IMG/VR virus record: IMGVR_UViG_3300032309_002862 | Coordinates: 1-62,272 of that record | Source: a virus | Direction: 5' to 3' (one strand) | Length of the DNA stretch: 62,272 bases | Part shown: piece after piece, positions 4,476-56,375 of the stretch | Layout of the letters: each line of letters opens with the position of its first letter | Numbering within the stretch: position 1 is the stretch's first letter | Notes under the pieces: generated by a model | Database searches by the model: none | The model's input: the letters and a program-made list of their open reading frames with translations, nothing else | What the model was told of the DNA's origin: nothing | Translations under genes and position numbers: made by a program

Positions 4476-4503
4476 AATTGAATATAATGGAAAAATGGAT
4501 AGA

Positions 4504-5397: not shown

Positions 5398-5412
5398 TTT
5401 TTGTTATTAAAA

Positions 5413-12580: not shown

Positions 12581-15423
12581 GTAAGTATAATGTTGATGTG
12601 ATAATGTTGGCTAATAATCTGTATGATACACATTATGAGTTAAGTTTAGAAACTATCAATTCTCTTAGAATGACTAATGGGGATGTTAAATTTAACATAA
12701 TCATTATTGAATCAAACAATAATTCAAATTATGTTTTTGACGATTGCCTTATTGTAAAACCTAATAAAAAATTCAACTACGGTGAATTTACAAATATCGG
12801 TTATACGTATTGTACAAATGATTGGGTTATGGTTATAAATAATGATCTGATATTTACACCCGAATGGTTTAATGAAATCATAAAAGTTTATGAAGAAAAC
12901 CCAAATATAAAATCATTTTCATCGTATGAACCTAATTTTTTAGGCGCTTATTATTGGGGATATTATAATGATACCGATAATTTATATTTTGAGTATAAGG
13001 TTCCTATGTACTTAACAGGGTGGTGTTATTTACATAAGCGGGAAATTTTAGAAACCATTGGTGGATGTGATGAACAATTTAGTTTTTATTATGTTGATAA
13101 CGATTATGGGAAAATGTTAGAATATTATAACATACCACATTGTTTAGTTAAAAGTTCAATTGTGTACCATAAAGCTAATCAAAGTCATGATACTATACCT
13201 GATTTAGTGAACGATGTAAAATTTAAAGAAGATGAAATTTTATTTCTTAAAAAATGGAATAATATAGGGTATAATCCTTATAATATCAATACGCATAAAA
13301 AGTTAAATATGAAAATTACGCAAGTAACACCAGGGGTTATTACAATACCGCCAAATGGATGGGGTGCAGTTGAAAAAGTAATATGGGAATACCATAATAG
13401 CATTAGAGAATTAGGGCATGAATGTGATATAAGATATCTTAATGAGGTGGATATTAACAGTAGCGATATCGTTCATATCCATATGGCTAATTTGGCTATT
13501 GAAGCAGCAAACAGAGGTATCCCTTATATCTTCTCATTACACGATCATCATGTTGTTTATTACGGTAAGGACTCATCCAACTACCAGCAAAATTTAGAAG
13601 CGATTAAAAGGTCTATAGTATCTTTTACTCATGCTGAGTTTTTAGTTGATTACTTTGATGGAACTGATAAGCTGTTCTATCTATCACATGGTGTTAATAC
13701 TGGGTTCTTTAAAAATGATAACCCAAAAAGAACGGAACATAAATTGTTATGCCTGGCGAATAATGGTATTTTGAGTGATTCAACATACGATAGGAAAGGA
13801 TTTAGATATGCAATTGAAGCTGCAATACAATTGGGTTTACCAATTACAATTGCCGGTCCGGAAAACAATAGAATATTCTTTGAACATCATAATGACTTAT
13901 TAAATTATGATAAGTTAACATTAATGTTCTCAAATCCAAATGAAGAACAGATATTGGAACTATATAAAAGTCATTCGATATTCTTGCATCCTTCTATGTT
14001 AGAAGCTGGACATCCAAATCTAACATTATTAGAGGCGGTGTCTTGTAATATGCCGGTTGTTGGCACTTATTTGGGATCACAGACAATCGAAGGAATGGTT
14101 GTGGTTGAAAGAGACGTGGATCAGATAGTTAGTGGTATTAGACAAGTTATCGATAACTACGATCTATATCTAAATAACACTGAAATAGATAGACAGAAAT
14201 ACGATTGGAGTGTTATTACCAAAAGGATGGTTAGGATTTACGAAGAACTTATTAGAAGTAGGAAGAATCTGAATAATCTCGAGACAAAACAAAGATTTGA
14301 TGAAGTTTTCGAAAATACCGAGATAAAACCAAAAGAGATGGTTGAGAAAATTGAAATAATTAATCATTACATCAATGGGGCTTTGGCTGAAATAAAGGGA
14401 AATAGCGACGGAAGATATTTGGTTGAGTTTTGGAATAGAAATGGTGATTGCGAGTATCGGGATGAGATCGGGTGTAACATGTGGGTTAAATTGAATAAAA
14501 AGTATTTTGATGAATACACTTTGAAAATTTACTCTGGCGGTAATTTAATCAGCGAGAAGAAATATGATGCTAAAAATAAAAGAGTTTATATTGCATTAGA
14601 CTCAAGATCATTAGGTGATACACTCGCTTGGCTACCGTATGCTGATGAATTCAGAAAGAAGCATAACTGCAAAGTTATTTGCTCAACTTTTTATAATGAT
14701 TTGTTTGTTAAGGGATACCCTGAAATACAATTCGTTTCACCAGGAAGTATCGTTCATGGTGCATATGCTATGTATGAGATAGGTTGGTTTTATGATGAAT
14801 CAAGAGAGCCGAGTTTACCCAACACCGTGCCCCTGCAGAAAACTGCAACGGGTATATTGGGTCTTGAATTTGAAGAAATCCGACCTAGCCTTTCTTTTGA
14901 TAGATCCAATAGACCACATGATAAAAAATATGTAGTGATTTCAACCAGATCAACAGCTGGCTGTAAGGAATGGGAGCATGATAAATGGCAGGACCTTGTT
15001 AATTTTCTAAAGTCAAATGGGTATGACGTTGCTGTGATTCAAGAGGACGGGACTAGCCTAGATGGTGTAATAGATTGGACTGGCTCAGACCCACTAGAGA
15101 AAAGAATGAACCAGATATATCATGCTGATTTTTTCATAGGGCTTGGATCCGGATTGAGCTGGCTTTCTTGGGCGGTTGGAACCCATGTGGTTATGATTGC
15201 TAATTTTTCAGAGGATGGACATGAGTTTACCGGTAACACCACACGTATAACAAATAAGAGTGTTTGTAATTCATGCTGGAATAACAAGAATTTTAAATTC
15301 GATAAAGGAGACTGGTACTGGTGTCCAGTAAACAAGGGTACTGATAAACAATTCGAATGCCATAAGTCAATATCCGTAGATATGGTGACAAATAAAATTA
15401 AAGAAAAAGGACTGATAAAATGA
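12577..15423 (+). CDS. Triple fusion: GT2 + GT4 + TibC/Aah-like O-heptosyltransferase
   Basis: I choose the ATG at 12577 because it makes the same 4-base ATGA overlap seen across this cassette; a TTG at 12571 is in frame. The 948 residues hold three domains. About 1-240 is GT2-like (NVDVIMLANNLYD, FTNIGYTYCTNDWVMVINND, GGCDEQFSFYYVDNDYG). About 245-590 is GT4-like (ITQVTPGVITIPPNGWGAVEK, LHPSMLEAGHPNLTLLEA). About 600-948 resembles the bacterial autotransporter heptosyltransferases TibC and Aah: a small N-terminal beta domain, then SRSLGDTLAWLPYADEFRKKH, ISTRSTAGCKEWEHDKW, GLGSGLSWLSWAVG, and four Cys at 897, 900, 916 and 928 (CNSCW, WYWCP, QFEC) matching the iron-finger of that family. TibC-type enzymes O-glycosylate Ser residues of surface proteins. 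A standalone enzyme is usual, so the fusion is odd. Confidence 0.75.
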   Translation: MSKYNVDVIMLANNLYDTHYELSLETINSLRMTNGDVKFNIIIIESNNNSNYVFDDCLIVKPNKKFNYGEFTNIGYTYCTNDWVMVINNDLIFTPEWFNEIIKVYEENPNIKSFSSYEPNFLGAYYWGYYNDTDNLYFEYKVPMYLTGWCYLHKREILETIGGCDEQFSFYYVDNDYGKMLEYYNIPHCLVKSSIVYHKANQSHDTIPDLVNDVKFKEDEILFLKKWNNIGYNPYNINTHKKLNMKITQVTPGVITIPPNGWGAVEKVIWEYHNSIRELGHECDIRYLNEVDINSSDIVHIHMANLAIEAANRGIPYIFSLHDHHVVYYGKDSSNYQQNLEAIKRSIVSFTHAEFLVDYFDGTDKLFYLSHGVNTGFFKNDNPKRTEHKLLCLANNGILSDSTYDRKGFRYAIEAAIQLGLPITIAGPENNRIFFEHHNDLLNYDKLTLMFSNPNEEQILELYKSHSIFLHPSMLEAGHPNLTLLEAVSCNMPVVGTYLGSQTIEGMVVVERDVDQIVSGIRQVIDNYDLYLNNTEIDRQKYDWSVITKRMVRIYEELIRSRKNLNNLETKQRFDEVFENTEIKPKEMVEKIEIINHYINGALAEIKGNSDGRYLVEFWNRNGDCEYRDEIGCNMWVKLNKKYFDEYTLKIYSGGNLISEKKYDAKNKRVYIALDSRSLGDTLAWLPYADEFRKKHNCKVICSTFYNDLFVKGYPEIQFVSPGSIVHGAYAMYEIGWFYDESREPSLPNTVPLQKTATGILGLEFEEIRPSLSFDRSNRPHDKKYVVISTRSTAGCKEWEHDKWQDLVNFLKSNGYDVAVIQEDGTSLDGVIDWTGSDPLEKRMNQIYHADFFIGLGSGLSWLSWAVGTHVVMIANFSEDGHEFTGNTTRITNKSVCNSCWNNKNFKFDKGDWYWCPVNKGTDKQFECHKSISVDMVTNKIKEKGLIK

Positions 15424-19052: not shown

Positions 19053-20897
19053 ATGGCGGAAGAAACAAACAAGAATCAGCCTGATCTGAATGATGGTAAT
19101 TATTGGAGCACGGCTAAAGTTAACGAGTTACTTAGAAAAGCAGACGAGGAAGGGCTAGACTTCAAGAGCGTAGACAATCCTTTTCATGACAATAACCCTG
19201 AGCTAAGAAGATCCAATGTTCTGTTCGAGTACACACAGGATGAGATAATAGAGATCGACAAGTGCGCAAGAGACGTTATCTATTTTGCAAAATATTGTCA
19301 GGTTATGACAGATACTGGTCTTGCTTATATTACCCTGAGAGAATATCAAGAATCGGTATTAAGAGAATATCAGGCCAATAGATTTAATATATTTCTAGCA
19401 CCCCGGCAGGTTGGTAAATCCATAATGTCCGCTGTTTTTCTGGTGTGGTTTTTACTTTTCAACCACGATAAAAATGCGATGATCCTGGCAAACGTTGGTG
19501 ACACAGCAGAGGAATTGATGGATAAGATAAAGGCCATAATAAAAGGATTGCCTTTCTTTCTGAAGCCCGGAATGATGGTCAATAATGTAATGTCTGTGCG
19601 TTTTGATAACGGCTGTAGGGTTATTGCTAAAACGACCACTAAGACATCCGGTATCGGTTTTACTATTCATTTTTTATACATGGACGAGTTTGCTCACATT
19701 AACTCATCCTTTATGGAAGCTTTCTTCAGGTCTACATACCCCACGGTATCTTCCTCGAAGGTGTCCCGAATCATTATAACATCTACACCAAATGGAATGA
19801 ATAAGTTCTATGAGATGTATATGAGCGCTGTTAAGAAAGAGAACACGTTCAATCCAATTAGGGTTGATTGGTGGCAGGTACCTGGTAGGGACGATGTGTG
19901 GAAACAGAATGAAATATCTAACCTTGGATCCGAGGAGCTATTTAATCAGGAGTACGGTAATCAGTTCTTAAGCTCCTCTACTTTGCTACTTGGATCACAG
20001 GAGTTACAGAAGATAAAAAGAAACGAGGTAGAGTATTTATGGAGGGAGATTGATGAATTTCATTACTCTGACGTAAATTATGAGAATTTTCTATGGCATC
20101 CTAAATTTGATATAGATAGTGCTGCAGAAGGGAATAAAAAATATGTTGTATCCGTAGATCTCTCAGGTGGAAACAAGGGTGACTTTACCGTCATTAATGT
20201 TTTTAAGGTCTCTCCTCTTCCAAGGAAAGTAATAGAAAGAATAGGTGAATTTGAGGACGAGGGTGATTTCTTTGGTCTTATTCAGGTTGGTATATTAAGG
20301 GACAACGAGATAAAACTGGAGGATGTTGTTAAGATACTTAGAATACTGGTAAAGAATGTACTAGGTGTCGAATCTGTGAAAATAGCTCTTGAGATTAACT
20401 ATAAGGGTGAACTTTTAGTTGATAAATTCCTTTCTGATGATGATTTATTTGAGGAAATTTTTGTTTACACTAAGCATTCTGAATCTGCTAGATCTTCTAA
20501 AGCTGGTATAAAATACAATGAAAAGAACAAGATGAAAAACTGTGAGCAGCTCAGAACACTTATTAGAGCAGACAGAATATTAGTGAATGATAAGAAATGG
20601 ACAGTACCCGAGCTATTCACATTCGGGCTGAATTCAAGAGGAACATATTCCAGCCAAACAGGTCATGATGACGTTGCTATGTCCCTGGTTAATCTCTCCT
20701 CTGCTTTTGAAAGTGGCGATTTCTACCAACTGGTCGGAGAACTTTTTGATGCGATGGAAACCCCATATAAAGGATTAATATTAAATAAAATGGGGGAAAC
20801 CGGGCAATCCCAATCTTCTGATGAATTTGGATTCGGAAACCAAGGTCCTTCTACCAAGGACGGAAAAAGCTTTAGAGACTTTAGTTCCATGATGTAG
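19053..20897 (+). CDS. terL: Terminase large subunit (ATPase + nuclease, gp17-like)
   Basis: A 614-residue packaging motor protein. ATPase domain: adenine-binding LREYQESVLREYQ, Walker A FLAPRQVGKS near residues 114-122, and Walker B FLYMDEF near 207-213 followed by AHIN with the catalytic acid. A coupling motif (IIITSTPNG) lies near 245. The C-terminal RNase H-like nuclease begins around 365 (VVSVDLSGGNKGDF, the first metal Asp), with later acidic residues (LEINYKGE, TGHDDVAMSL). The length matches T4 gp17 (610). It cuts concatemeric DNA and drives it through the portal; two portals are encoded in this window. Followed by a gap with a late-promoter motif and the sheath gene, the T4 16-17-18-19 order. 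Confidence 0.95.
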   Translation: MAEETNKNQPDLNDGNYWSTAKVNELLRKADEEGLDFKSVDNPFHDNNPELRRSNVLFEYTQDEIIEIDKCARDVIYFAKYCQVMTDTGLAYITLREYQESVLREYQANRFNIFLAPRQVGKSIMSAVFLVWFLLFNHDKNAMILANVGDTAEELMDKIKAIIKGLPFFLKPGMMVNNVMSVRFDNGCRVIAKTTTKTSGIGFTIHFLYMDEFAHINSSFMEAFFRSTYPTVSSSKVSRIIITSTPNGMNKFYEMYMSAVKKENTFNPIRVDWWQVPGRDDVWKQNEISNLGSEELFNQEYGNQFLSSSTLLLGSQELQKIKRNEVEYLWREIDEFHYSDVNYENFLWHPKFDIDSAAEGNKKYVVSVDLSGGNKGDFTVINVFKVSPLPRKVIERIGEFEDEGDFFGLIQVGILRDNEIKLEDVVKILRILVKNVLGVESVKIALEINYKGELLVDKFLSDDDLFEEIFVYTKHSESARSSKAGIKYNEKNKMKNCEQLRTLIRADRILVNDKKWTVPELFTFGLNSRGTYSSQTGHDDVAMSLVNLSSAFESGDFYQLVGELFDAMETPYKGLILNKMGETGQSQSSDEFGFGNQGPSTKDGKSFRDFSSMM

Positions 20898-24341: not shown

Positions 24342-24896
24342 ATGGCAGGCTTACCACATTTTTCAAACTCGATCTCATCGATAAATAACTTTGAACCGGT
24401 TTACTTAAACCAGTTTGAGGTAGTAATAAATCCACCAGCTGCTGTAGCTGGTGGACCTATTCTTTTACAGCACGTAACGAAGGTTTCTGGTATGGATGTA
24501 GATAAAAATCCAGCTCCTGTAGCTCAGAAGTACAAGTTTGCAAAAAGAAACTACGCGGGAGCTAAACCAGATACTACTGGAATGACCGTTTCAATGAGCT
24601 TCACTGTGAACTTGAACGATGCTAATTCTATGTATGTTTTTAAAACACTAAGACAATGGACGGATCTTATCTATAATCCTCTAACCGGAGCAATGGGTGT
24701 TAAAAATGACTATGTAGGGTCAATAGTTATTTCAATCTTTAATAAAAACGGTGACGTTTTTAAAAGAGTAGTTTGTAAAGACTGTTTCCCGCTTAGCGCA
24801 ATTTCGCCAATGAACATAAGTTATGCAGCAGAAGAGGTTTGGAAGATAGACAATATGGAATGGGCAGTTGATTATTGGGAAGATCTATTCCTATAA
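24342..24896 (+). CDS. gp19: Tail tube protein, copy 1 (gp19-like)
   Basis: A 184-residue tube protein (T4 gp19 is 163). It has the family layout: FEPVYLNQFEVVI at the N-terminus, KVSGMDVDKNP, KYKFAKRNYAG, the conserved LRQWTDLIYNPLTGAMG, and DYVGSIVISIFNKNGDVFKR near the C-terminus, ending in DYWEDLFL. It forms hexameric rings stacked inside the sheath. The next gene is a clear paralogue. The 40-base gap after the sheath contains GATAAATAGT, only 6 bases before the ATG, probably too close to be a promoter. Confidence 0.93.
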   Translation: MAGLPHFSNSISSINNFEPVYLNQFEVVINPPAAVAGGPILLQHVTKVSGMDVDKNPAPVAQKYKFAKRNYAGAKPDTTGMTVSMSFTVNLNDANSMYVFKTLRQWTDLIYNPLTGAMGVKNDYVGSIVISIFNKNGDVFKRVVCKDCFPLSAISPMNISYAAEEVWKIDNMEWAVDYWEDLFL

Positions 24897-24912: not shown

Positions 24913-25488
24913 ATGTCAGGATTACCACACTATACTAATTCTCAAGCTGCTATACAGCTTTACGAACCAGTTTATCTTAACCAGTTCGAGGTTATTATTA
25001 ATACTCCAGCGGGTGTTCAGCAGTTACCTGGTTTAAATGGAGAATTGATACTGACACAGCAGGTTAAGGCTATATCAGGTATGACCGTTGATATACAGCC
25101 AGCTGGACCAGTTGAGCAATTCTATAAGTTCGCTACTAGAAGATATGCAGGTGGTGAACCTTCTCAGACCGACATGGATTTAACCATGGAATTTGAGGTT
25201 AACCTTAACGAATCCAATTCGATGACGGTGTACAGGACTCTTAGACAATGGTCGGATCTTATCTATAACCCATTGACTGGTGCTATGGGACTTAAGCGTG
25301 ATTATGTTGGATCTATGGTTATATCTATATTCAATAAGCAGGGTGATGTTTTTAGAAGAATAAGAATACCTGTTTGCTTTATAAGTACGCCAATACCAGC
25401 TTTGGAGCTAGATTATGACCAAGGAGCTAATATCTATAGTATCAGTATTTCTTGGAAATGTGATTACTGGGAAGATCTTTTCTTGTAA
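24913..25488 (+). CDS. gp19: Tail tube protein, copy 2 (gp19-like paralogue)
   Basis: A 191-residue paralogue of the preceding gene, aligned along its whole length: SGLPHYTNS versus AGLPHFSNS, FEPVYLNQFEVVI versus YEPVYLNQFEVII, LRQWSDLIYNPLTGAMGLK, DYVGSMVISIFNKQGDVFRR, and the same DYWEDLFL end. It differs mainly in a short insertion near residue 40 and in the last third. Either the tube is built from two subunit types, or one copy forms a special ring at the tube end (tail terminator or baseplate side). A strong terminator follows, so the unit sheath-tube-tube ends here. Confidence 0.92.
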   Translation: MSGLPHYTNSQAAIQLYEPVYLNQFEVIINTPAGVQQLPGLNGELILTQQVKAISGMTVDIQPAGPVEQFYKFATRRYAGGEPSQTDMDLTMEFEVNLNESNSMTVYRTLRQWSDLIYNPLTGAMGLKRDYVGSMVISIFNKQGDVFRRIRIPVCFISTPIPALELDYDQGANIYSISISWKCDYWEDLFL

Positions 25489-32671: not shown

Positions 32672-33361
32672 ATGGCAGATTACCCACAGATCCAACAGGA
32701 GTCAGATAACTTAAATTACGACGGAGGAGGTAGTACAGGCGGTACATATACCCAAACTGTACAGGGTGGATCTACTAGTGCGCCAGTTTTCACACCTGGT
32801 GCTTGTACTTTTACTGCTAGATACACTAACGTTGCTAGAACAAGGGAAGCATTACCGCTGATAGATTGGACGTTTAAGTATAAGAACCAACCTGCTTTTT
32901 TTAAATACTTCAAGTCCTCTTTTAATGTATGCCTGCAGTCAAATGTGATGGATACCCTGAGCTTAGCTTCTTTTTTCCATCCTTTTCTTTCTTTCTCTAG
33001 TTACCAAAAGCAAACATTTGTAATAGCTCCGGATACTTCAATCGATGTAGATACTGGTAATTTTGCCAACACATTAAACGAGGTTAGCTTTATATTGGCA
33101 AGAGCTTATTATCTACCGACACAAAAGGGAGCTGCTAGAGTATTATTTTGGGACTACGACGGAAACACTAGATACCCGATGGGTGAAATAATGGTTTTAA
33201 CCGGCGCTGTAAAAGAGGATCAGAATTGGAAGGGGTGGAATATAAGTTCTTTCTCTAATATAGGTCACACAGGTCCTGTATCCAATCCTAGTTTGGGTGG
33301 CATCACCTTTACAAACCCAACCGAATCGCCAGTTAAACTGGTAGTAATAACAGCAAACTAA
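32672..33361 (+). CDS. Beta-rich virion-type protein, paralogue 1 (229 aa)
   Basis: A 229-residue protein with a Gly/Thr/Gln-rich N-terminal segment (DGGGSTGGTYTQTVQGG) and a beta-rich body. Its second half aligns with the following gene: WDYDGNTRYPMGEIMVL here versus WEYRGNEYFMGELTVL there, then a GWN, GPVS.P, GGIT...NP pattern and a closing strand (KLVVITAN). The layout, N-terminal flexible arm plus beta-sandwich, resembles small capsid decoration or fibre proteins, but no family is recognised. GATAAATAAA lies 10 bases before its ATG. Confidence 0.5.
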   Translation: MADYPQIQQESDNLNYDGGGSTGGTYTQTVQGGSTSAPVFTPGACTFTARYTNVARTREALPLIDWTFKYKNQPAFFKYFKSSFNVCLQSNVMDTLSLASFFHPFLSFSSYQKQTFVIAPDTSIDVDTGNFANTLNEVSFILARAYYLPTQKGAARVLFWDYDGNTRYPMGEIMVLTGAVKEDQNWKGWNISSFSNIGHTGPVSNPSLGGITFTNPTESPVKLVVITAN

Positions 33362-33362
33362 T

Positions 33363-33848
33363 ATGGCAACAAGACCCGTTATATGTCCCTATATAGAACC
33401 AGAGGGATTGAAATTCGAAAGAACTAACCTGGTTATAGATTCAAACAGCATGATGAATCCTCAAATAGTGCTTATGTTAGAGGATTTGTTATTTGATGTT
33501 CCTGCATATTCAAAATCCACAATAAATCTTAGAGCTGAATCCTGCGCACTGATAAGCCAGTCGGACATAGCGGATCCTGGAGGGTACGTTAGCTTTATAG
33601 CTATTAAAGCAGTATACCCAGCTGGGACTTTAGAAAAAGACAAGTTCATTACATGGGAGTACAGGGGCAATGAATATTTTATGGGCGAACTTACTGTATT
33701 GAGCGGTGTTAATATCACAACTTTTGATTCGGAGCAATATGGATGGAATCTGGCTAAACCTGGACCAGTATACCAGGACGGAGGTATAACGGTGTGTAAT
33801 CCCCACTTAGATAAAAGGGTAATTTTAGAGATATTGGTTTGCAGATAA
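33363..33848 (+). CDS. Beta-rich virion-type protein, paralogue 2 (161 aa)
   Basis: A 161-residue protein beginning two bases after its paralogue. It lacks the Gly-rich arm but shares the second half (WEYRGNEYFMGELTVLSG, GWNLAKPGPVYQDGGITVCNP, LEILV). The first half (MATRPVICPYIEPEG, VLMLEDLLFDVPAYSKSTIN) is also beta-rich. The adjacent, diverged copies suggest a heteromeric surface or fibre component. It is followed by two GATATATAGA motifs. Confidence 0.5.
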   Translation: MATRPVICPYIEPEGLKFERTNLVIDSNSMMNPQIVLMLEDLLFDVPAYSKSTINLRAESCALISQSDIADPGGYVSFIAIKAVYPAGTLEKDKFITWEYRGNEYFMGELTVLSGVNITTFDSEQYGWNLAKPGPVYQDGGITVCNPHLDKRVILEILVCR

Positions 33849-33910: not shown

Positions 33911-36592
33911 ATGGACTTCATTAACAAAGTACAAAAATTAAAAGAAACTACTACCTCACCGGAGGTTAAATCTCTGTGTGAGAACTTCTTAAACGAGGCA
34001 TCAAATAAAAATACCCTTATAGAGGGACTTAAAAATTCCAATGATGCTGAGGTTTCTGGTTTCTTAAGAGAAAATACATCAAACATCTGGAATGATTTCA
34101 GAAATCAAGAAATGGAAGCTTCCAAAAGAGCAGCTTCTTCACTTTTGGAATCTTGGAGCCAGAATACATCTAAAGGAGATAATTCCGGAACTTGGATTAC
34201 GCCTTCTAAAGAAAAATCAGGTGATAAAGAGATGAGTTCTTTAAACGAGTCCCTTTCTCACATAAAAGGTGATAAATCTGTTAATTCTTTTTTAACTTCT
34301 GAGTCTATTAAAAATCTAGGTGTTCTTGAGTCTGTTAAGTCTCTTCTTAGTTCACCTGTTGCCGAGCACATGAAGGCTAAGATCATGTTAGAGAATTATA
34401 AAAATATCCTTGTTAATAAGAATATCCCAGAGTATGCAGTTATTGAAAATTTTGTTAATGATTTAAGCCAATTGACATGGGATGCTAAATCTAAGGAGGT
34501 CTTTGAATCACTTCTAGATAAAGCTAATACTTACAACAGAGAGATATACGTTTCTAAAGTGATAGATTCTATTAAGGGATCTGGATCTAGAGAATTTTAC
34601 TCTGATCTTTATGAGTGTTTAAATGAGTGGATGGTATCTAAAGACAAGTCAAACGGTCTCCTAGTTAATCAAATCTCTAAATATTCTTTCAATCCTGTAG
34701 TTAAAAACCTTATAAACTATTTGAATCTTAACGAAAGTCGAAAAGATTCAAGCAGACTTTCTATCCCTGAAACTAATCAAGGTGAATCATACGTAGAGAG
34801 AGCTTATTCCGCAATGGCAACTAATGAGGATCAAAATTTCGCATTTGGCCTTGGTGGATTTATTTTCGAAGCAACAGAGAATGGCGTACAGAGAATAGAC
34901 GCTAAGACTGCAGCTTCTTCATACGGTAATACATTTGTTAATCTATTGGGAATTACTTCTAGACCCGATGTTAAGATAAATGAAGCGGGTGTTCATTTCT
35001 CAATCGGCAAGAAGGTAGTTAGTATAACAGAAGGAACGGAGAATAATCCTAATGTATTTGTTGGTAGAAATAAATTAGCTTTCTCTAATGTTAACGAAAT
35101 GGCTAAGATAATAGGATTGGAAGTATCCTCTTATATGGGATATAACGATATGTCTCTTGTAAAAGATATAGCTACCGTTTATGAAAATTACAATTCTTTC
35201 GTGGAGCTTGATTTTGCTAAGTCGATCGTATCTAGAATTTACGAGGGACTTTCTGTTAATCTGTTCAAATGGAACGATAAGATCTACCTTCAAAGAATAA
35301 ATGAAGCTATGAGAGAGAATTCAATATTCTCTGTTAATAGCATGCAAGCTGTTAAGTTAGTAAAAGACACATTAAGATATGATATTTCTGAAGGCCTAAG
35401 CGAATTCTTGGTTGGTGAATTAAGAACTAAATCGGTTCTTCTAAATGACAGATCTAGTCTTCTTGAAAACATACAAAATGTTGAGGAACAGTTGGCCAAA
35501 GTTCAATCCTTGATAGAAAATCCTAACTACTCGCATTCGTCTGAGCTTAAAGAAGCAGAGAAAATGCTAAAAAGGGAATTGAAGGTTTTAAGAAATAAAT
35601 GGGCTAGCATCAACGAGGAGATCGAGAAAATTGAAAATGTTGATTTAGATCCTAGCATGTACCTTATAGAGGATGCTAAATTTAATATAGGAGACTATGT
35701 TAAAATAAAAGAATCAGGAGAAACCGGTAAAATCGTTTCAATAGACGGTACTTCGGGAAGATATACAATTTTAACCGATGCGGGTAGAACAGAGGATCAT
35801 AGAGTAAACGATATTCAAGATTTAGAGGAAGCTATGTCAGATGCAGCAGAAAAAAATGCTGAAAAGACAAGTGATTTCGATAAAGACTATTTCGACAATG
35901 ATCCTGCTAGTGATATAGAAAGTGACGAGTCTGAAGAAGAGGATGGCACCGAGGAAGTAAAGGAATCAAATGCTACTTTATCTAAAGCACCTACGAGAAC
36001 TAAAAATGTTAAAGAAAAGCAATCACAGCCAACATATGCTAAAGCTCCTAGATCTAAGGATCAGGAGAAACCAATGGCTCACGATCTAAAGAACCCTAAA
36101 GCTGCTCACTATGCTGAAGGAATCAAAGGACAAAAGCCAACAGATTTTGATGTTGCTGGATATGCGATTGGTTATAATATCGACGAAGCTAGCGAAGTAA
36201 AGGACGGATCACAAGGATTAGCAGAAGCTCCTAATTTCGGTAAAATCGAGAGAATGCATGATAAAAATGCTTTAGCTGGTATGTCACAGAAACACGGATA
36301 CGCGAAAGCTCCTGGTGGGAATGACAAAATAGATCTTTCATTGGATCTACTACACGGATATAGAAAGGTACAGGAAGGGGTAAAAGGCGATGTTTCTAAA
36401 ACGGATCCGAATCTTGCTGTAGCACCTTCTTTTAAAGGTGGGGAGAAAAGCATCATGGCTCATGACATTAAAAACGAAAAGGCTTTTAATTTCGCTACCG
36501 CACCAAGCAAGCACAGAGATGCTATAGACTTTGGAATAAATGACGAGATTGGTTATAACGTAGACGAATCTGAATTGCAAAAAAAAAAGTAA
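33911..36592 (+). CDS. Large virion protein with KOW/SH3-like segment and C-terminal repeats (893 aa)
   Basis: An 893-residue acidic protein, mostly helical in its first 560 residues, including a coiled coil (residues about 515-575). A KOW/SH3-like strand set follows (FNIGDYVKIKESGETGKIVS), then an acidic linker. The last 220 residues carry loose repeats, with two copies of MAHD[LI]KN.KA...DF...IGYN[IV]DE and several (Y/F)AKAP or AP.F elements. The zero frame ends in QKKK then TAA, just after a run of ten A; the same repeat style continues in the -1 frame to 36750. Two late-promoter motifs precede it. Likely a structural or internal head protein; no family recognised. Confidence 0.6.
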   Translation: MDFINKVQKLKETTTSPEVKSLCENFLNEASNKNTLIEGLKNSNDAEVSGFLRENTSNIWNDFRNQEMEASKRAASSLLESWSQNTSKGDNSGTWITPSKEKSGDKEMSSLNESLSHIKGDKSVNSFLTSESIKNLGVLESVKSLLSSPVAEHMKAKIMLENYKNILVNKNIPEYAVIENFVNDLSQLTWDAKSKEVFESLLDKANTYNREIYVSKVIDSIKGSGSREFYSDLYECLNEWMVSKDKSNGLLVNQISKYSFNPVVKNLINYLNLNESRKDSSRLSIPETNQGESYVERAYSAMATNEDQNFAFGLGGFIFEATENGVQRIDAKTAASSYGNTFVNLLGITSRPDVKINEAGVHFSIGKKVVSITEGTENNPNVFVGRNKLAFSNVNEMAKIIGLEVSSYMGYNDMSLVKDIATVYENYNSFVELDFAKSIVSRIYEGLSVNLFKWNDKIYLQRINEAMRENSIFSVNSMQAVKLVKDTLRYDISEGLSEFLVGELRTKSVLLNDRSSLLENIQNVEEQLAKVQSLIENPNYSHSSELKEAEKMLKRELKVLRNKWASINEEIEKIENVDLDPSMYLIEDAKFNIGDYVKIKESGETGKIVSIDGTSGRYTILTDAGRTEDHRVNDIQDLEEAMSDAAEKNAEKTSDFDKDYFDNDPASDIESDESEEEDGTEEVKESNATLSKAPTRTKNVKEKQSQPTYAKAPRSKDQEKPMAHDLKNPKAAHYAEGIKGQKPTDFDVAGYAIGYNIDEASEVKDGSQGLAEAPNFGKIERMHDKNALAGMSQKHGYAKAPGGNDKIDLSLDLLHGYRKVQEGVKGDVSKTDPNLAVAPSFKGGEKSIMAHDIKNEKAFNFATAPSKHRDAIDFGINDEIGYNVDESELQKKK

Positions 36593-36855: not shown

Positions 36856-37215
36856 ATGGCAAAAGTTTATGTTAAAAACAGTGAGCTCCTTAGAGCTGTA
36901 TCCGAATCTAAAGAGAAGGGTCAGCTAACAAGAGAGACGATCGATATGTTTACCCTCATGATAGAAGGTATTTCTAAGAAGATGGCTTACAAGGATCCTG
37001 ACGATAAGGACGATTGTATGGCTTTTGCCATGGAGGATCTTTGCAAATATTGGAATAGATTTGACCCTGCTAAATCTAATAATCCATTTGCCTACTTCAC
37101 GCAGGTTGCAAAGAATGGATTTGCTAAGGGATGGAAGAAATTACACCCACCAAAGAATCCCAAAACTATACCCTTCAGTTATATAACAGGAGAGGATAAT
37201 AGTTACAACGTTTAA
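36856..37215 (+). CDS. gp55: Late transcription sigma factor, gp55-like
   Basis: A 119-residue homologue of T4 gp55, the sigma that directs RNA polymerase to late promoters. YVKNSELLRAV matches T4 YVNNKELLQAI, and IMLIAEGLSKR in T4 corresponds to TLMIEGISKKM here. The region-2-like FDPAKSNNPFAYFTQVAKNGF matches the T4 segment [21 protein letters not shown]. T4 gp55 is 185 residues and ends in a hydrophobic-acidic peptide that contacts the sliding clamp; this protein stops much earlier (GEDNSYNV), so clamp contact may be absent or supplied by another protein. It probably reads the GATATATAGA elements. Immediately followed by gp4. Confidence 0.85.
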   Translation: MAKVYVKNSELLRAVSESKEKGQLTRETIDMFTLMIEGISKKMAYKDPDDKDDCMAFAMEDLCKYWNRFDPAKSNNPFAYFTQVAKNGFAKGWKKLHPPKNPKTIPFSYITGEDNSYNV

Positions 37216-37216
37216 T

Positions 37217-37702
37217 ATGTCCATAAAAAAGGTTAAACCTAACGGAAAACACAAACATGGGCTTTATAGTCCACAGAATCCCGATAAGTACATAGGTGAT
37301 ATACATAATATCATTTATAGATCTTCGTGGGAGCAGAGATTCTGTGCATATTGCGATAGAAACGAAAGGATAGTTAAATGGAGCTCTGAACCTCTTTTTA
37401 TAGATTACTGGAATCCATTAGATAAGAAAATGCACAAATACTATGTGGATTTTTACATAAAGACTCTAAAAGAAGACGACACCTATCAGGAGTGGATAAT
37501 AGAGGTTAAGCCAGAGTCACAAACTCAAAAGCCGATATACGAGGGTAAAAATATGACTCTTAAAAAACTAGAGAGCTATAACTATAATATGAAAATATGG
37601 ATAACAAATCAGGCAAAATTTAAAGCTGCTAAAGAATGGGCTATCCAAAGAGGTTTTAGATTTGGTGTAGTTGACGAGAAATTTCTTTTTAATAGTAAAT
37701 GA
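37217..37702 (+). CDS. gp4: Head completion protein (gp4/gp50-like, nuclease-fold)
   Basis: A 161-residue homologue of T4 gp4 (150 residues). Shared elements: NIIYRSSWEQRFCAYCD, IVKWSSEPLFIDYWNPLDKKMHKYYVDFYI, and WIIEVKPESQ. The D-x-F-Y and E-V-K-P residues form a PD-(D/E)XK-like core, also conserved in T4. gp4 acts after DNA packaging to make the filled head competent for tail joining. The start is one base after the gp55 stop; the stop overlaps the next gene by 4 bases. Confidence 0.9.
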   Translation: MSIKKVKPNGKHKHGLYSPQNPDKYIGDIHNIIYRSSWEQRFCAYCDRNERIVKWSSEPLFIDYWNPLDKKMHKYYVDFYIKTLKEDDTYQEWIIEVKPESQTQKPIYEGKNMTLKKLESYNYNMKIWITNQAKFKAAKEWAIQRGFRFGVVDEKFLFNSK

Positions 37703-38343
37703 GTTTTTCTGAAAAAATAAAATCATACAAGGACGGATTCATATCCCAATCTGAGACTGTTTCTAAAACTGACGAGTATTTTATAAGCTCCTATATAAAG
37801 TTATCGAACAGGGATTTTCGACCTGAAAAGTTCGACGGCCAATTTCTTCCCGGTAAGATCTATATTTTTAGATATAATCCTAAGCAGAAACCAGATGACG
37901 GTAAAAAAAAGGAGAAGGAGTTCATAAACAGACTACCGATAGTTTTAGCTTTTGATGTTAAGAAATCAAAAGATCTAAACAACATCCTATATGGATCGGA
38001 TTTAATAGCTACCCCACCTGATGAAAGAGTTAAGATATTGGAGAGGGTCTATGATTTTTCAGAGAGCATAATAGATTCTAATAAAAAATCGGGAAGCCAA
38101 TCTCCCGTGAACCTAAGTGGTGATAATGTAAAGTCTTTATTGAAAGGTACTGGATATATTGGAAGCACTAAAGGATTCGATATTTCATCAATGTCTGAAG
38201 TCTATGTTATAGGCTATGATGATTGGAAAAAAATACCATATCTTAGTGTAGCCCTTCTTCAAGGGTCTTCTCCGATTGAGATATATAATTCCTATAGATC
38301 GAAATTAAAAGATAATTCTGGTCTAGAAAATAAAAATAAGTAG
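37699..38343 (+). CDS. Unknown virion-associated protein between gp4 and the portals (214 aa)
   Basis: A 214-residue protein, translationally coupled to gp4. FLPGKIYIFRYNPKQ followed by LPIVLAFDV is a beta-strand pair seen in several uncharacterised T4-like phage proteins. Residues about 125-165 form a Gly/Ser-rich loop, and a strand and helix end it (VYVIGYDDWKKIPYLSVALL). T4 has gp53 (a baseplate wedge) after gp4, but this sequence does not resemble gp53. Likely structural by position. Confidence 0.5.
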   Translation: MSFSEKIKSYKDGFISQSETVSKTDEYFISSYIKLSNRDFRPEKFDGQFLPGKIYIFRYNPKQKPDDGKKKEKEFINRLPIVLAFDVKKSKDLNNILYGSDLIATPPDERVKILERVYDFSESIIDSNKKSGSQSPVNLSGDNVKSLLKGTGYIGSTKGFDISSMSEVYVIGYDDWKKIPYLSVALLQGSSPIEIYNSYRSKLKDNSGLENKNK

Positions 38344-38346
38344 TGA

Positions 38347-39921
38347 ATGGCTGGTTTTATAGATAACGAAAATGGTAATCCGGTATTTCAGAGGATTAGG
38401 GAATCTGTTAAGTCGATCTCTAAGTTCGGTATGAAATACGAGGACATGGTGATTAAGAACTCCATGGCTGTTGGCGCTACTGAAGCTGCTTTCATTAATC
38501 AGAACAAAACAAACGTTCCTGATGAGAATATGATGTATAGTCTTGCGAAGCAAGATACTATGGTCAAACAGTATATCTCTTATTTCGACAAGGATTATAA
38601 GGGAAAGAGGGATTATCTTAGGAAATTCTCTCTTAACCCAGAGATAGAAGGAGTTCTTGATATTGTTTGCGACGAATCCATAAACTACGACCCTTCTAAT
38701 TATTACGCATATCCCGATTTTCTAGATATAACTACTCTAAAAGAAAAAACAAGAGAAAAGGTTTATGATGTTTTTAGAAAAATATATGACATCTGGGGAT
38801 TTAGCGATGATATAACAGCATGGCAATTCTTTAGACAATTCATGGTGGACGGATTCCTTGCATTTGAAATAATCTGGGACAATAGGGGGAAAGAGATAAT
38901 TGGATTTAAAGAATTGGACGCTACTTCTTTAATACCTAGCGTAGAAAAACAACCAGACGGAAGACACGTTAACGTTTGGATACAATTTCCGAATGACCCT
39001 AAAAAGACAAGGATGCTATATGACTCACAGATCATATACATGTCTTATGCTAAGGGAAATTCAGTTTCCAGATTAAGTTACGTTGAGAGATTAATTAGAC
39101 CTTATAATACCCTAAGAATTATAGAATACACTAGGGTAATTTGGTCAGTGATGAATGCTTCATTCAAGCTTAAAATGACCGTTCCTGTTGGATCAAGATC
39201 ACCTCAGAAAGCTATGCAGACCTTGGGTGAACTTATGAGTATCTATAAGGAGGATATTAGCTTGAGCGATGATACTGGTGAATTGCTAGTTGACGGAGCA
39301 CCTAAGATACAATTCTATAAGAATTATCTGATACCACAGGGCCAAAACGGTCAACCTACAATTGAGCCCTTGACAATGGAGGGACCGAACTTAAATGATC
39401 CTGCCCCTCTTGCATATTTCTACGATAGATTCATAGAGGAATCTAAAATACCTGCTACAAGATTTAAGGGATTAGATGGATCTTCTAGTGCAACATATTC
39501 CAACACTGCGGATGGCCTGGACAAGGAAGAGGTAAGATTTAGTAAGTTCATAAGTAGATTGAGAACCAATTTTCAGGATATCATTATAAAGCCACTTTGG
39601 TTACAAATATGTAAAGACAATCCGGAATTAGAAAAAGATCTAGTTTTTAAGAGCCAGCTTGGACTTAAGTACATCAGCGAGAACCCTTTTAGGGTAAACC
39701 AGGAGATGGAATTGATCACCAAGAGAAAAGAAAGCGTAGATTCGCTAGCTCTTATAATGGAAGACGACGATAAACCTTATTTTTCGCAGACTTACTTAAT
39801 TGAGAATTTTCTCGGACTTACACCTGCAGACATTAAAGCTAACAAGATAGCAAAAGAAAAGAATGCCAAGAAGAAAGAGAAGGAAGGCGGAGAGGAAGAA
39901 GCACCAGAAGTTACTTTATAA
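38347..39921 (+). CDS. gp20: Portal protein, copy 1 (gp20-like)
   Basis: A 524-residue portal (T4 gp20 is 524). Landmarks: KSISKFGMKYEDMVI, YISYFDKDYKGKRDYLRKFSLNPEI, the wing/stem region FRQFMVDGFLAFEIIWDNRGKEI with GFKELDATSLIP, and YAKGNSVSRLSYVERLIRPYN. The tunnel-loop/crown half contains SRSPQKAMQTLGE and RFSKFISRLRTNFQDIIIKPLW. It would form the dodecameric ring at the capsid vertex through which DNA is packaged. The tail end is Lys/Glu-rich. Fifteen bases later a second full portal paralogue starts. Confidence 0.93.
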   Translation: MAGFIDNENGNPVFQRIRESVKSISKFGMKYEDMVIKNSMAVGATEAAFINQNKTNVPDENMMYSLAKQDTMVKQYISYFDKDYKGKRDYLRKFSLNPEIEGVLDIVCDESINYDPSNYYAYPDFLDITTLKEKTREKVYDVFRKIYDIWGFSDDITAWQFFRQFMVDGFLAFEIIWDNRGKEIIGFKELDATSLIPSVEKQPDGRHVNVWIQFPNDPKKTRMLYDSQIIYMSYAKGNSVSRLSYVERLIRPYNTLRIIEYTRVIWSVMNASFKLKMTVPVGSRSPQKAMQTLGELMSIYKEDISLSDDTGELLVDGAPKIQFYKNYLIPQGQNGQPTIEPLTMEGPNLNDPAPLAYFYDRFIEESKIPATRFKGLDGSSSATYSNTADGLDKEEVRFSKFISRLRTNFQDIIIKPLWLQICKDNPELEKDLVFKSQLGLKYISENPFRVNQEMELITKRKESVDSLALIMEDDDKPYFSQTYLIENFLGLTPADIKANKIAKEKNAKKKEKEGGEEEAPEVTL

Positions 39922-39935
39922 ATAAAAAAATAGAA

Positions 39936-41585
39936 ATGGCAGGATTTATAGATCCCATACAACCAAATAGTGCATTCGGAACGATACTGAGAAGTCTTTC
40001 TCAGATATCTAGGTTTGGTATGAAGTACGAGGATATGGTTGTTAGGAATTCACAGGCCATAGGTAAAACCGAATCTGAATTCTTCAATGAGCAGGGAACA
40101 GGATTTACAGAAAGTGAAGCTTTTTATTGGACGGTTTCTCATTCTGATACGAAGGTAAGAAAGTACATAGCTTATTTCGATAAGGATTATATAGACAAAA
40201 GAAACTTTCTTAGGAAGTTTTCGCTAAACGGTGAGATTGAGTTTATACTCGATACGGTAACTGATGAAGCTGTGGTTTACGACGAGAAGAATTATTTTGC
40301 ATATCCCGAGATCAAGAATTTGGACGTAAGCGATAAGGTGAAAGATAAACTGATGGAGAATTTTTACCGGATCTATCATCTTTTTAATTTTCAGGAAAGT
40401 ATATTAGCTTGGCAGGTATTTAGGCAGCTCCTAATTGATGGGTTTCTAGCTTATGAGATAATCTACGATAGCAGAGGCAAGCAAGTTATTGGATTTAAAG
40501 AACTCGATGCAACATCACTTCAGCCTATGGTTGAAAAAGTTGGCGAAAATGATTTTCAGCAGGTTTGGGTTCAGTATCCAAAGAATCCCCAAATGACAAG
40601 AAAGCTTAAGAATGAGCAGGTTATCTACATATCATATGCTAAAGGTAATTCAATTTCCAGGGTAAGTTATGTTGAGAGATTAGTTAGATCCTATAACATC
40701 CTGAAAATAATGGAGAACAGTAGGATTATATGGAATGTCATGAACGCTTCATATAGATTGAAGTTTGTTATACCTATAGGTACACAGTCACCACAAAAGG
40801 CCATGCAAACGCTAGGACAAATAATGTCTTATCATAAAGAGGAGATATCTATAAACGACAATTCAGGGGAATTGACTGTTAACGGAAGACCAAAAATTCA
40901 GTTCTATAAAAACTATCTTTTCCCTGAGAAGGATGGTGTTTCTCCTACCATAGAAACACTAAATGCAGCTGGACCTGATTTTAATATCATGGACAACGTG
41001 CTTTACTTCTTCAATAAACTAAAGCAAGATTCTAAAATACCGTATGCGAGATTTGCTTATAGAGGTGGAACACCTGCAAACAACCAAATTAGCATTGATT
41101 CTTTAGAAAGAGATGAGATAAGGTTCGAGAAGTTTCTTTCCAGATTGAGATCGATTTATCAGGAAATCATAGTTAAGCCTCTTTATATACAAATGTGTCT
41201 TGATTATCCTGAGCTTGTAAAAGATAGAAGCTTTAAAACTAATCTTGGAATTAATTTCGTAAGGGAAAGCGAATTCAACGATCTGGTTGAACTTGCTAAT
41301 CTAGTTAAAAGAGGGGATTTTATAAAATCTCTTGCTGACATGAAAGTTAAAGTTGGTGAAGAAGAGCAGCCTTATTTTGATAAAGATTTCCTTGTTCAGA
41401 GATTTTTAGGTCTAACACCGGAGCAGATAGAGGGCAATGCTTCATACAAAGAGCTTGAAGCTAAATCTGCTAAAAAGGAAAGCTCTACTAGCGGAGCTGA
41501 GGGCGAGGCAGCTCCAGCGGAAGAAGAAGCGGCAGCTCCAGCGGAAGAAGAAGCGGCAGCACCCGCTGAGGAAAAGACTGCATAG
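39936..41585 (+). CDS. gp20: Portal protein, copy 2 (gp20-like paralogue)
   Basis: A 549-residue paralogue of the preceding portal, aligned end to end: MAGFID, RFGMKYEDMVVRNSQ, YIAYFDKDYIDKRNFLRKFSLNGEI, FRQLLIDGFLAYEIIYDSRGKQVIGFKELDATSLQP, YAKGNSISRVSYVERLVRSYN, SPQKAMQTLGQIM, RFEKFLSRLRSIYQEIIVKPLY. All regions are kept in both copies, so neither looks like a decaying pseudogene. It differs most at the extreme C-terminus, a repeat of APAEEEAA three times. A terminator follows. A mixed ring or two alternative vertex rings are possible. Confidence 0.92.
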   Translation: MAGFIDPIQPNSAFGTILRSLSQISRFGMKYEDMVVRNSQAIGKTESEFFNEQGTGFTESEAFYWTVSHSDTKVRKYIAYFDKDYIDKRNFLRKFSLNGEIEFILDTVTDEAVVYDEKNYFAYPEIKNLDVSDKVKDKLMENFYRIYHLFNFQESILAWQVFRQLLIDGFLAYEIIYDSRGKQVIGFKELDATSLQPMVEKVGENDFQQVWVQYPKNPQMTRKLKNEQVIYISYAKGNSISRVSYVERLVRSYNILKIMENSRIIWNVMNASYRLKFVIPIGTQSPQKAMQTLGQIMSYHKEEISINDNSGELTVNGRPKIQFYKNYLFPEKDGVSPTIETLNAAGPDFNIMDNVLYFFNKLKQDSKIPYARFAYRGGTPANNQISIDSLERDEIRFEKFLSRLRSIYQEIIVKPLYIQMCLDYPELVKDRSFKTNLGINFVRESEFNDLVELANLVKRGDFIKSLADMKVKVGEEEQPYFDKDFLVQRFLGLTPEQIEGNASYKELEAKSAKKESSTSGAEGEAAPAEEEAAAPAEEEAAAPAEEKTA

Positions 41586-41692: not shown

Positions 41693-43015
41693 ATGATTAA
41701 AGAACTAAGAATCTTAAAGGAATTAGAGGAACTTACTGGAGAGGGATCACAGAAGAAAAAGCAGGAAATAATCAAACAAAATTGGACCTCTGAATTAGCT
41801 TACGTTTTTGACGTGTGCTTCAATCCATTTGTTACTACCAAGCTACATAAGCTTAATTTTTCAGAGGATCCGAGCGATTCTTTTGGACTGGATAACTTCA
41901 AAGAGCTCGTTGAAAAATTAAAATCAGCTCCTGCAGCTAATAATTCTATAAGGTTAGAAGCTAATCAGATGGTAAACACCAGAATTACCGATGATAGTGA
42001 CGACGCTGACCTTAGAAAGATTCTAATGAAGGTGCTAACCAAGAGAATGAACGTTGGGGTTGGTGCGAAGCTGATCAACAAGGCTATTGGTAGAGAGGTG
42101 ATACCTGATCCATCCGTTATGTTAGCAACCGACGACCAAGATTCGCTTCTAAACTGGGATAAGATCTATTGTGAGGAAAAGTATGATGGCGTAAGAGTAA
42201 TAGCTATTTATAAGGAAGGCGGATTTAGTTACTTTACCAGAGCTTTTAATGAACTTGATGCAGATAAGCTGCACAAGATTACATTTTCTCTTAAACAGAT
42301 AATGAACTTTTCAGGATTGAAAGGCTCTTGGTTCTTTGATGGTGAATTAACAGATCACAATAGGAAATCAGTAAGTGGTAAGGTTACGCAGATACTGAAG
42401 GGGACTGCCCCAGACAATATAGGGGATAGTATCATATTCAATGTCTTTGATCTCGAAGAATATGACACGCTAAGAGCTGGCGTTGGAATTCTACCCTATT
42501 CGGTAAGAAGACAGACACTAGAATCTGTTATGAAAAACGTAGAAGAGAGCGAGCCAGTAAAATTAGCTACAATGTGGGAACTTGAAGATCCCTCTCAGAT
42601 TACTTCAATCTATCAAAAAATAGTAGATGCAGGAGGAGAGGGAGTTATCTGTAAAAAAGATAGCGTTTATCAATGTTCTCGATCAAAGAATTGGATAAAA
42701 TTCAAAGAGGTTAACGAATGTGATCTTGTCATCCGGGGATGGTACCCAGGAGAGGGTAAAAGGGAGGGCTTCATAGGTGGACTTGTATGCACGGACCTAT
42801 CTGAAACCTTGCATGTTAAAATAGGATCAGGTTTTACCGACGAGGACCTTAAATCATTGAGTGCTAACCCAGATGCCCTTCGAGGGAAGATATGTGCTGT
42901 GCAATACAATGTTACAATTACTGACAAGTTTGATAATAGATCACTATTTTTGCCTAGATTCGTAGAGATAAGAAACGATAAGTCAGAGGCTGATGATTTA
43001 TCATCCAAATTTTGA
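41693..43015 (+). CDS. ATP-dependent DNA ligase (gp30-like)
   Basis: A 440-residue ligase. An N-terminal DNA-binding helical domain (residues 1-150) is followed by motif I, EEKYDGVRVIAIY, with the adenylated Lys near 163; motif III, WFFDGELTD; motif IV, GGEGVICKKDS; and motif V, NWIKFKEV. The OB-fold (VIRGWYPGEGKREGFIGGLV, LHVKIGSGF) completes the T4 gp30/eukaryotic type. It seals nicks during replication and repair. First gene of the replication unit. Confidence 0.95.
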   Translation: MIKELRILKELEELTGEGSQKKKQEIIKQNWTSELAYVFDVCFNPFVTTKLHKLNFSEDPSDSFGLDNFKELVEKLKSAPAANNSIRLEANQMVNTRITDDSDDADLRKILMKVLTKRMNVGVGAKLINKAIGREVIPDPSVMLATDDQDSLLNWDKIYCEEKYDGVRVIAIYKEGGFSYFTRAFNELDADKLHKITFSLKQIMNFSGLKGSWFFDGELTDHNRKSVSGKVTQILKGTAPDNIGDSIIFNVFDLEEYDTLRAGVGILPYSVRRQTLESVMKNVEESEPVKLATMWELEDPSQITSIYQKIVDAGGEGVICKKDSVYQCSRSKNWIKFKEVNECDLVIRGWYPGEGKREGFIGGLVCTDLSETLHVKIGSGFTDEDLKSLSANPDALRGKICAVQYNVTITDKFDNRSLFLPRFVEIRNDKSEADDLSSKF

Positions 43016-54644: not shown

Positions 54645-56375
54645 ATGAAACTAATTAATGAACAAGAAATCTATGATACCTGGTCGCCTCTAATTGAGAG
54701 CAAAGCTGGTATCACTGATTCAAACAAAAAATCGTGGTTGACTAAGTATTGTCACTACCACTCATTGAACGAATCTGCCGGTGCTTATAACACTCTAGGT
54801 GTAGTAAACGGTATGGGTAACGTAGCACCTCCTGCATACCCAGGTATGGGTTCTTTCTCTGGTTCTAACGCAGGTGGCGCTAACTTCGGTGCTAACCAAG
54901 GATTCTACAATCCAGTAAACAACGGATCTGGTGACAAATTCCCATCTCTTCTTCCATTGGCTATCCAAGTGGCTGCTAAGACTGTTGGATTTGATATCGT
55001 TCCTGTTATCCCAATGTCTGGACCAACTGGTATTTTGTCTTACCTAGACTACGTATACGCTGGTGGTAAAATTGCTGGTGCTACTTCTGCTACTGCTGGT
55101 GAGGATTTAGCTGATGCTCCAACAATGATCAAATTCCCAGTTTATCAAACAGCTTTAGGAACTGGTACTACTGGTGCTACTTCTGGTACATTCACTGTAG
55201 GTACAACTTATACTGTTACTGAGGGTGGTGGTACTTTGACTTTGATTTTCGTTGGTCTATCAAGAATCGATGGTTTCCCAATCTTCAGAATTAGCAATAT
55301 TTCTACTGGATTTAACGTTGCAAGTATCATCGATGGTAATCCTGTACAAGTAAGTTCAACTGGTTTCTACACTGGAGCAACTAGTGTTAACTATAGTGCA
55401 CAATTGGTTAAAGCTCTTGAAGATCACATCCAAGGTTTCTCTGGTGCTGGTTTCAACAACAACCAAGACTGGCAAGGTCCTTACGTTGATGGTACTAAGA
55501 CTTACAACCCAATGTTGAGAGGAGTAGCTGAATCTACTTACTACAACTCAATGGGTCTAAGCACCTTCACTAAGTTCGTAGAAGCTGAAACTTTCCAAGT
55601 AGCTGCTTCTGTAACTACGGAGCAAATCCAAGATTTGAACAAGCAATTTGGTATTGACGTTATCTCTATGATCGAGAATGCACTTGTTAACGAGGTTTCT
55701 CAAGCTATTAACAAGCACATCCTTTCTAGAGCATTTGCACTAGGTTGGTCTAACCACACCCAGTTCAACAACGTTCAAAATCAAAACTTGAACTTGAACT
55801 TGGTTCTTGGTGGTGGAACTGGTACAACTAGCGCTTACATCAATAAATCTGATGCTAACGTGACTATGCCAATCCCAGTTGGTCCATCTACTTCAAGCTA
55901 CGAGAACTTGTCAACTTTACAAAGAAGACTGTACTCTAGAATTCTAGCTGCTGCTAACGTGGTTGCTAACCAAGGTAGAAGAGGTCCTGCTAACTTCCTT
56001 GTAACTAACGCTGCTATCGCTTCTGCGTTACAAGATATTAGCCAGTTCACTTTCGCTCCGTTCACAAACACTCTAACTCAAAACAACGGTACTCTTTACC
56101 CAGTTGGTTCTCTAGCTGGTATGACCGTTTACGTAGATCAGAACATGAACTACAGCGACACTAGAGTTTGTGTTGGTAGAAAAGGTGGTGACGACGAGCC
56201 AGGTTTGAAATTCATGCCTTACATGATGGCTGAGTCTATCCAAACCATCTCTGAAGGTACAATGTCTCCGAAGATCGCAGTTAAGTCTAGATACGCTCTA
56301 GTTGAGGCTGGTATGCTTCCAGAGACTCTGTATTTCACTTTCTTCGTACAGCTTCCAGCTGGTGGAATCGTTTAA
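54645..56375 (+). CDS. gp23: Major capsid protein (gp23-like)
   Basis: A 576-residue HK97-fold capsid protein of the T4 gp23 type (T4: 521). Landmarks: FPSLLPLAIQVAAKTVGFDIVPVIPMSGPTG, YLDYVYAGGK, STFTKFVEAETFQVAASVTTEQ, a central DLNKQFGIDVISMIENAL, and QALKFMPYM-like end region (GLKFMPYMMAESIQTISEGT). The N-terminus (MKLINEQEIYDTWSPLIE) ends near a candidate protease site LNE43-S44, like the maturation cleavage of T4 gp23. A Gly/Thr-rich insertion around residues 180-240 may be the surface insertion domain. Codons are biased to C-ending forms (AAC, TTC, TAC) more than its neighbours, as expected for a highly expressed gene. Confidence 0.95.
   Translation: MKLINEQEIYDTWSPLIESKAGITDSNKKSWLTKYCHYHSLNESAGAYNTLGVVNGMGNVAPPAYPGMGSFSGSNAGGANFGANQGFYNPVNNGSGDKFPSLLPLAIQVAAKTVGFDIVPVIPMSGPTGILSYLDYVYAGGKIAGATSATAGEDLADAPTMIKFPVYQTALGTGTTGATSGTFTVGTTYTVTEGGGTLTLIFVGLSRIDGFPIFRISNISTGFNVASIIDGNPVQVSSTGFYTGATSVNYSAQLVKALEDHIQGFSGAGFNNNQDWQGPYVDGTKTYNPMLRGVAESTYYNSMGLSTFTKFVEAETFQVAASVTTEQIQDLNKQFGIDVISMIENALVNEVSQAINKHILSRAFALGWSNHTQFNNVQNQNLNLNLVLGGGTGTTSAYINKSDANVTMPIPVGPSTSSYENLSTLQRRLYSRILAAANVVANQGRRGPANFLVTNAAIASALQDISQFTFAPFTNTLTQNNGTLYPVGSLAGMTVYVDQNMNYSDTRVCVGRKGGDDEPGLKFMPYMMAESIQTISEGTMSPKIAVKSRYALVEAGMLPETLYFTFFVQLPAGGIV

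Follow-up and report, generated by a model that had tools for sequence, protein, structure and literature searches.

A large clade of uncultured, huge myovirus-like phages carries two gp20-type portal genes in tandem, almost certainly functional paralogues that have been retained since one duplication. The portal is the ring that passes DNA into and out of the virus head, and it is usually the product of one gene; the structurally solved portals are, to our knowledge, all one-gene homododecamers. Models of DNA packaging, like those of the symmetry mismatches (12:5 at the motor and capsid, 12:6 at the tail), presume identical subunits. We lean, with some reserve, towards an account in which a gp20-type gene was duplicated in place and both daughters became indispensable, their products co-assembling in a mixed ring. 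The proteins belong to a known family; a clade-wide two-component portal coupled to a doubled tail tube is new, and our search of the full-text literature, from which subscription journals are mostly absent, returned no report of a two-gene T4-type portal.

The portal pair and its surroundings

The window, that is, the whole stretch of DNA analysed, comprises 62,272 bases of an IMG/VR virus record. The features on which the argument draws are the following.

19053..20897, + strand: terminase large subunit, present once as a full copy in the paired clade
24342..24896, + strand: tail-tube paralogue 1, 184 aa (PHROG); the tandem duplication co-occurs with that of the portal
24913..25488, + strand: tail-tube paralogue 2, 191 aa, 56% identical to paralogue 1
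36856..37215, + strand: late-transcription sigma-like protein (gp55-like, PHROG 234), upstream of the portal in paired and single-portal clades
37217..37702, + strand: T4 gp4-type head-closure protein (PHROG 218), upstream of the portal in both clades
37699..38343, + strand: T4 gp2-type DNA end protector-like protein (PHROG 429), immediately 5' of portal A
38347..39921, + strand: portal A, T4 gp20-type portal paralogue, 524 aa, C-terminal end ...APEVTL (ORF, Pfam, PHROG, tree, AF2 model)
39936..41585, + strand: portal B, T4 gp20-type portal paralogue, 549 aa, acidic APAEEEAA C-terminal tail (ORF, Pfam, PHROG, tree, AF2 model)
38347..41585, + strand: the tandem portal pair with its 14-nt gap, a unit kept in 100 distinct relatives (IMG/VR census)
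41693..43015, + strand: ATP-dependent DNA ligase (PHROG), 3' of the portal pair in the paired clade
54645..56375, + strand: major head protein, present once at full length in the paired clade

The preliminary description had reported two full-length portal genes in tandem, neither of them decaying, and both statements are borne out. The reading frames run without internal stop or frame break, and strong purifying selection acts on both (see below). Pfam Portal_T4 (PF07230, cut-off 22.9 bits) is matched almost end to end, by portal A over model positions 7-427 of 433 (E 2e-56, 192 bits) and by portal B over positions 6-427 (E 4e-64, 218 bits), and both proteins match PHROG 213 (portal). They are 50% identical to each other over 521 aligned columns. 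AF2 models, which are of low to modest confidence (pLDDT 64 for portal A, 61 for portal B), place the elements of both proteins in the order wing, stem, clip, stem, tunnel loop, wing and crown; Foldseek ranks T4 portal chains first for both models (E 1e-17 to 1e-18).

The T4 gp20 portal (PDB 3JA7, 6UZC, 9MKB) belongs to the same Pfam family over its full length, is the top structural match to both models and has in common with A and B the order of wing, stem, clip, tunnel loop and crown. It is encoded by one gene and forms a homododecamer (PMC4493910), whereas here there are two half-identical paralogues, which differ from it at both ends, in the first ~80 residues and in the acidic C-terminal tail.

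The pair sits in a T4-like myovirus head-tail module with terminase, sheath, two tail-tube genes, maturation protease and major capsid protein, and a clamp loader gene also lies 3' of portal B. Upstream of the portal, in paired and single-portal clades alike, there is a conserved 893-residue protein (33911-36592 in the window) without confident family match. Beside the module, a stretch of lower GC (985-15423; 27-32% across most of 2-14 kb) holds sugar epimerase, glycosyltransferase and methyltransferase genes and is possibly an acquired glycan cluster. No Shine-Dalgarno-like sequence precedes portal A (38343-38347) or portal B (39922-39935); the leaders are A-rich, and so is that of portal B in relatives.

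Conservation and origin of the pair

A census of IMG/VR yielded 100 A+B pairs that are distinct as proteins and 110 that are distinct as nucleotide sequences. A always precedes B on the same strand, no gene intervenes, and the spacing ranges from -1 to 23 nt. Loci with one copy in the paired clade are cut by contig ends, apart from one contig with a frame-broken B, and no case of complete loss of A or B was found among the paired-clade relatives in this census. The preliminary description had raised the question of whether the other copy is lost in most relatives; both are kept in 100 of 100 distinct pairs. Retention in every relative checked suggests that both proteins are needed. A profile search of 16 large contigs (127-430 kb) found exactly two portals in each, a departure from the norm of one gene per genome. 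The sole frameshifted B (L220 / L448, IMGVR_UViG_3300044626_001692) is broken inside an A-rich stretch, where a sequencing or assembly error is possible.

INPHARED holds no nucleotide-level match to the window; by tblastn, portal B matches 2,057 of its records and portal A 852, at identities below 60%. A second place of portal similarity was seen by tblastn in only two INPHARED records, the 735-kb LR756501 and LR756503. In LR756501 it was rejected as a second portal, the profile search reducing it to a portal-like fragment of 62 residues (LR756501.1, 15166-15351), isolated and distant from the full portal gene. As to the host, a search for a link through bacterial genome contigs gave no match, and a Bacteroidota-type promoter pattern was discarded as a hint because it showed no excess.

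A sister clade is made up of about 66 distinct single-copy portals, whose identity with A and with B alike is roughly 40-47%; by profile search, LR756500 (462 kb) and its relatives carry one portal each. In a maximum-likelihood tree of 65 portals, the A clade (support 100/99), the B clade (100/100) and the two together (100/97) are recovered, with the single-copy clade and other huge phages outside. As A and B are two supported sister clades, one duplication preceded the whole group. The sister clade, whose members LR756500 and IMGVR_UViG_3300042897_000994 have portals at 43-47% identity with A and with B, has the same upstream gp55- and gp4-type neighbours as the paired clade, which places the duplication in situ. 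It differs in having one portal gene and one tail-tube gene, and a comparison of neighbouring genes found no DNA ligase downstream of its portal. In LR756500 itself the terminase match is split into several pieces (LR756500.1, 193362-197788) and a TAA lies within the sheath match, which may reflect introns, inteins or faulty assembly.

The two genes have since been inherited together, distances among A copies and among B copies being closely correlated across genomes (r = 0.96). A and B are as similar between genomes (identity 0.498) as within one (0.500), so gene conversion between them is rejected over the folded body. Constraint is strong and nearly equal, with a median dN/dS of 0.019 for A and 0.017 for B among 31 genome pairs.

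Where the two copies differ

Divergence of A from B is focused on the pore-lining, stem and clip elements and not on the wing, which faces the capsid. With T4 gp20 domain boundaries (PMC4493910) transferred by profile-HMM alignment, and hence uncertain by a few residues, A/B-fixed differences occupy 24 of the 88 sites conserved within each type in stem, clip, channel and tunnel, and 10 of the 130 such sites in the wing, the crown and the N-terminal region. The enrichment has p = 2e-4 at the 0.8 threshold; the remaining two thresholds give 0.017 and 0.010. Differences in charge are among them. At T4~383 in the tunnel loop A has Asp or Glu and B has Lys or Arg; at T4~292, the tip that contacts the terminase, A has Lys or Arg and B has Gln; and at T4~339, near the inner clip loop, Gly in A corresponds mostly to Lys in B. 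In the T4 portal, gp17 binds at the tip of the clip, and the tunnel loops of adjacent subunits contact one another (PMC4493910).

In the channel loop, alpha7 and tunnel loop, portal A is nearer to the single-copy portal than to B, and in the wing, alpha5 and clip it is nearer to B; within the clip, B is nearer than A to the single-copy portal. Changes derived in A fall mainly in alpha5 and the clip, and those derived in B mainly in the channel loop, alpha7 and tunnel loop (7:2 versus 1:6, p = 0.04), an exploratory result in that the segregation between half-stems was noticed before it was tested and has p = 0.21 at the strictest threshold. Complementary degeneration in its strong form, with mutually exclusive losses, is unsupported: ancestral residues are lost in both copies at 53 sites against 17.6 expected under independence, an excess that fits fast sites common to A and B. 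Reciprocal changes do occur in the pore region, but over the protein as a whole losses in A and B do not exclude one another. For the covariation of A with B, the pairs offer an effective number of sequences of ~35.

Both proteins end in a variable acidic tail. The preliminary description had confined the extension of acidic repeats to the second copy; this holds in the window but fails across the 100 genomes, PAE-type repeats occurring on A in 34 and on B in 24, and many relatives have them on copy A with none on B. A C-terminal [V/I/F]TL-like motif (VTL, FTL) is present on at least one copy in 94 of the 100 genomes; in the window portal A has a terminal VTL-like motif and portal B has none. 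Where both copies have the motif, their last 8 residues agree better within a genome than after shuffling (6.0 matches versus 4.3; maximum of 5000 shuffles, 5.1). The matching ends are encoded by codons with synonymous differences, and they look as if both tails were to bind one partner.

We considered an overlapping T4-type late promoter as the source of the C-terminal TL and rejected it: TATAAATA overlaps the stop in 4 of 100 A copies and 4 of 100 B copies, and many B copies encode the last Leu by CTT or CTC. The rarity of the overlap and these codons together place the terminal motif at the level of protein. Within the window, the count of TATAAATA is not above chance.

One ring or two, and a doubled tail tube

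We propose a model in which the single gp20-type portal gene of an ancestor of this huge myovirus-like clade was duplicated in situ and both daughter proteins turned into indispensable portal subunits. Portals A and B would then co-assemble as one dodecamer at the sole packaging vertex. Co-retention without exception, equal constraint, comparable wings, a common terminal motif and divergence in the pore fit such obligate co-assembly, and on this comparative evidence from sequences A and B probably share one ring. For two equally constrained types in a ring of twelve, regular alternation is the simplest geometry. The simplest arrangement would accordingly be (AB)6, with six-fold instead of twelve-fold symmetry, although we hold regular alternation to be a conjecture with somewhat less than an even chance of being right. 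In such a ring the B-type lining of channel and tunnel loops would alternate with the A-type, ancestral-like lining, and A-type clips would alternate with B-type clips on the side of terminase and neck. A mixed ring was among the possibilities raised in the preliminary description; co-retention, co-inheritance and the divergence of pore and stem favour it, and it is from these that we infer the ring itself.

The specialisation of pore elements would also fit two separate homo-oligomeric rings, one the packaging portal and the other placed elsewhere, as a stacked connector, a pilot ring in the head or a special second vertex. Each copy has the complete portal fold and could form a ring, and the differences in clip and tunnel loop would suit different partners. 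However, the paired clade has one full-length copy each of terminase, sheath and major capsid protein, so that a second specialised vertex, also put forward in the preliminary description, is unsupported. The wings, which contact the capsid in T4, are comparably conserved in A and B, whose C-terminal motif is, moreover, interchangeable. We regard two such rings as unlikely, though deserving of serious attention.

It is less likely still that the two proteins are alternative or stage-specific portals, with A12 heads and B12 heads both made (for example, for different head sizes or packaging conditions) from interchangeable homo-rings. Such a scheme would make co-assembly unnecessary and would agree with both genes being intact, but the genes are adjacent and likely co-expressed, and that no lineage has lost either copy is not what one expects of interchangeable parts. 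Similarly improbable is a ring in which one copy is a minor part, say one to five subunits, marking a position such as a five-fold motor contact. Asymmetric subunits could help with symmetry mismatches, and the mismatches of the T4 portal with motor and capsid are real (PMC9958956), yet the near-equal evolutionary rates and constraint of A and B give no sign of a minor part. Finally, a recent or dispensable duplicate, kept for dosage or as the minor fitness variant once suggested for this pair, would suit the tandem layout typical of recent duplicates but can be dismissed, since the copies have diverged by 50% from a single ancient duplication, every one of the 100 distinct pairs retains both, and dN/dS is as low for one as for the other (~0.02).

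The co-assembly model gains a wider setting from the tail tube. Its gene is paired in 11 of the 12 AB contigs searched, the twelfth match lying at a contig end, and single in all 11 sister-clade contigs with a match as well as in LR756500 and LR756501. With tail tube and portal paired and terminase single, the two ring-forming parts of the conduit are doubled and the packaging enzyme is not. The matched duplication suggests the same shift from one subunit type to two along the whole DNA conduit. It is tempting to go further and suppose that the whole conduit was rebuilt from paralogue pairs, as a six-fold (AB)6 portal and a tube of two alternating or layered proteins, but we consider this rather doubtful. 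If true, portal and tail would share six-fold symmetry, and DNA would be packaged and ejected through a single channel equipped with tunnel loops of two kinds.

Related solutions are known in other rings. In the tail tubes of P74-26 and T5 a duplicated domain gives a pseudo-hexamer of two domain types (PMC10034513). As in the paired clade, the subunit of a DNA-conduit ring has been duplicated; there the copies are fused in one protein, whereas the tube paralogues here are two separate genes. In the fungal V-ATPase a ring subunit was duplicated and the daughters are obligate in one c-ring (Finnigan et al. 2012, as related in PMC7982386). The proteins are unrelated and the comparison is one of working principle, a mixed ring being demonstrated in the V-ATPase and inferred for the portals.

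A conserved portal of two subunits would allow one to ask which of them contact the motor, whether the tunnel loops form two classes and whether the step from 12 to 6 towards the tail occurs within the portal. More broadly, the clade would be a case in which a phage ring protein shifts from one subunit type to two, with the tail tube changing likewise. A third adjacent pair of paralogues in the window, without match in Pfam, PHROG or PADLOC, lies at 32672-33358 and 33363-33848; its members are 28% identical over 147 residues.
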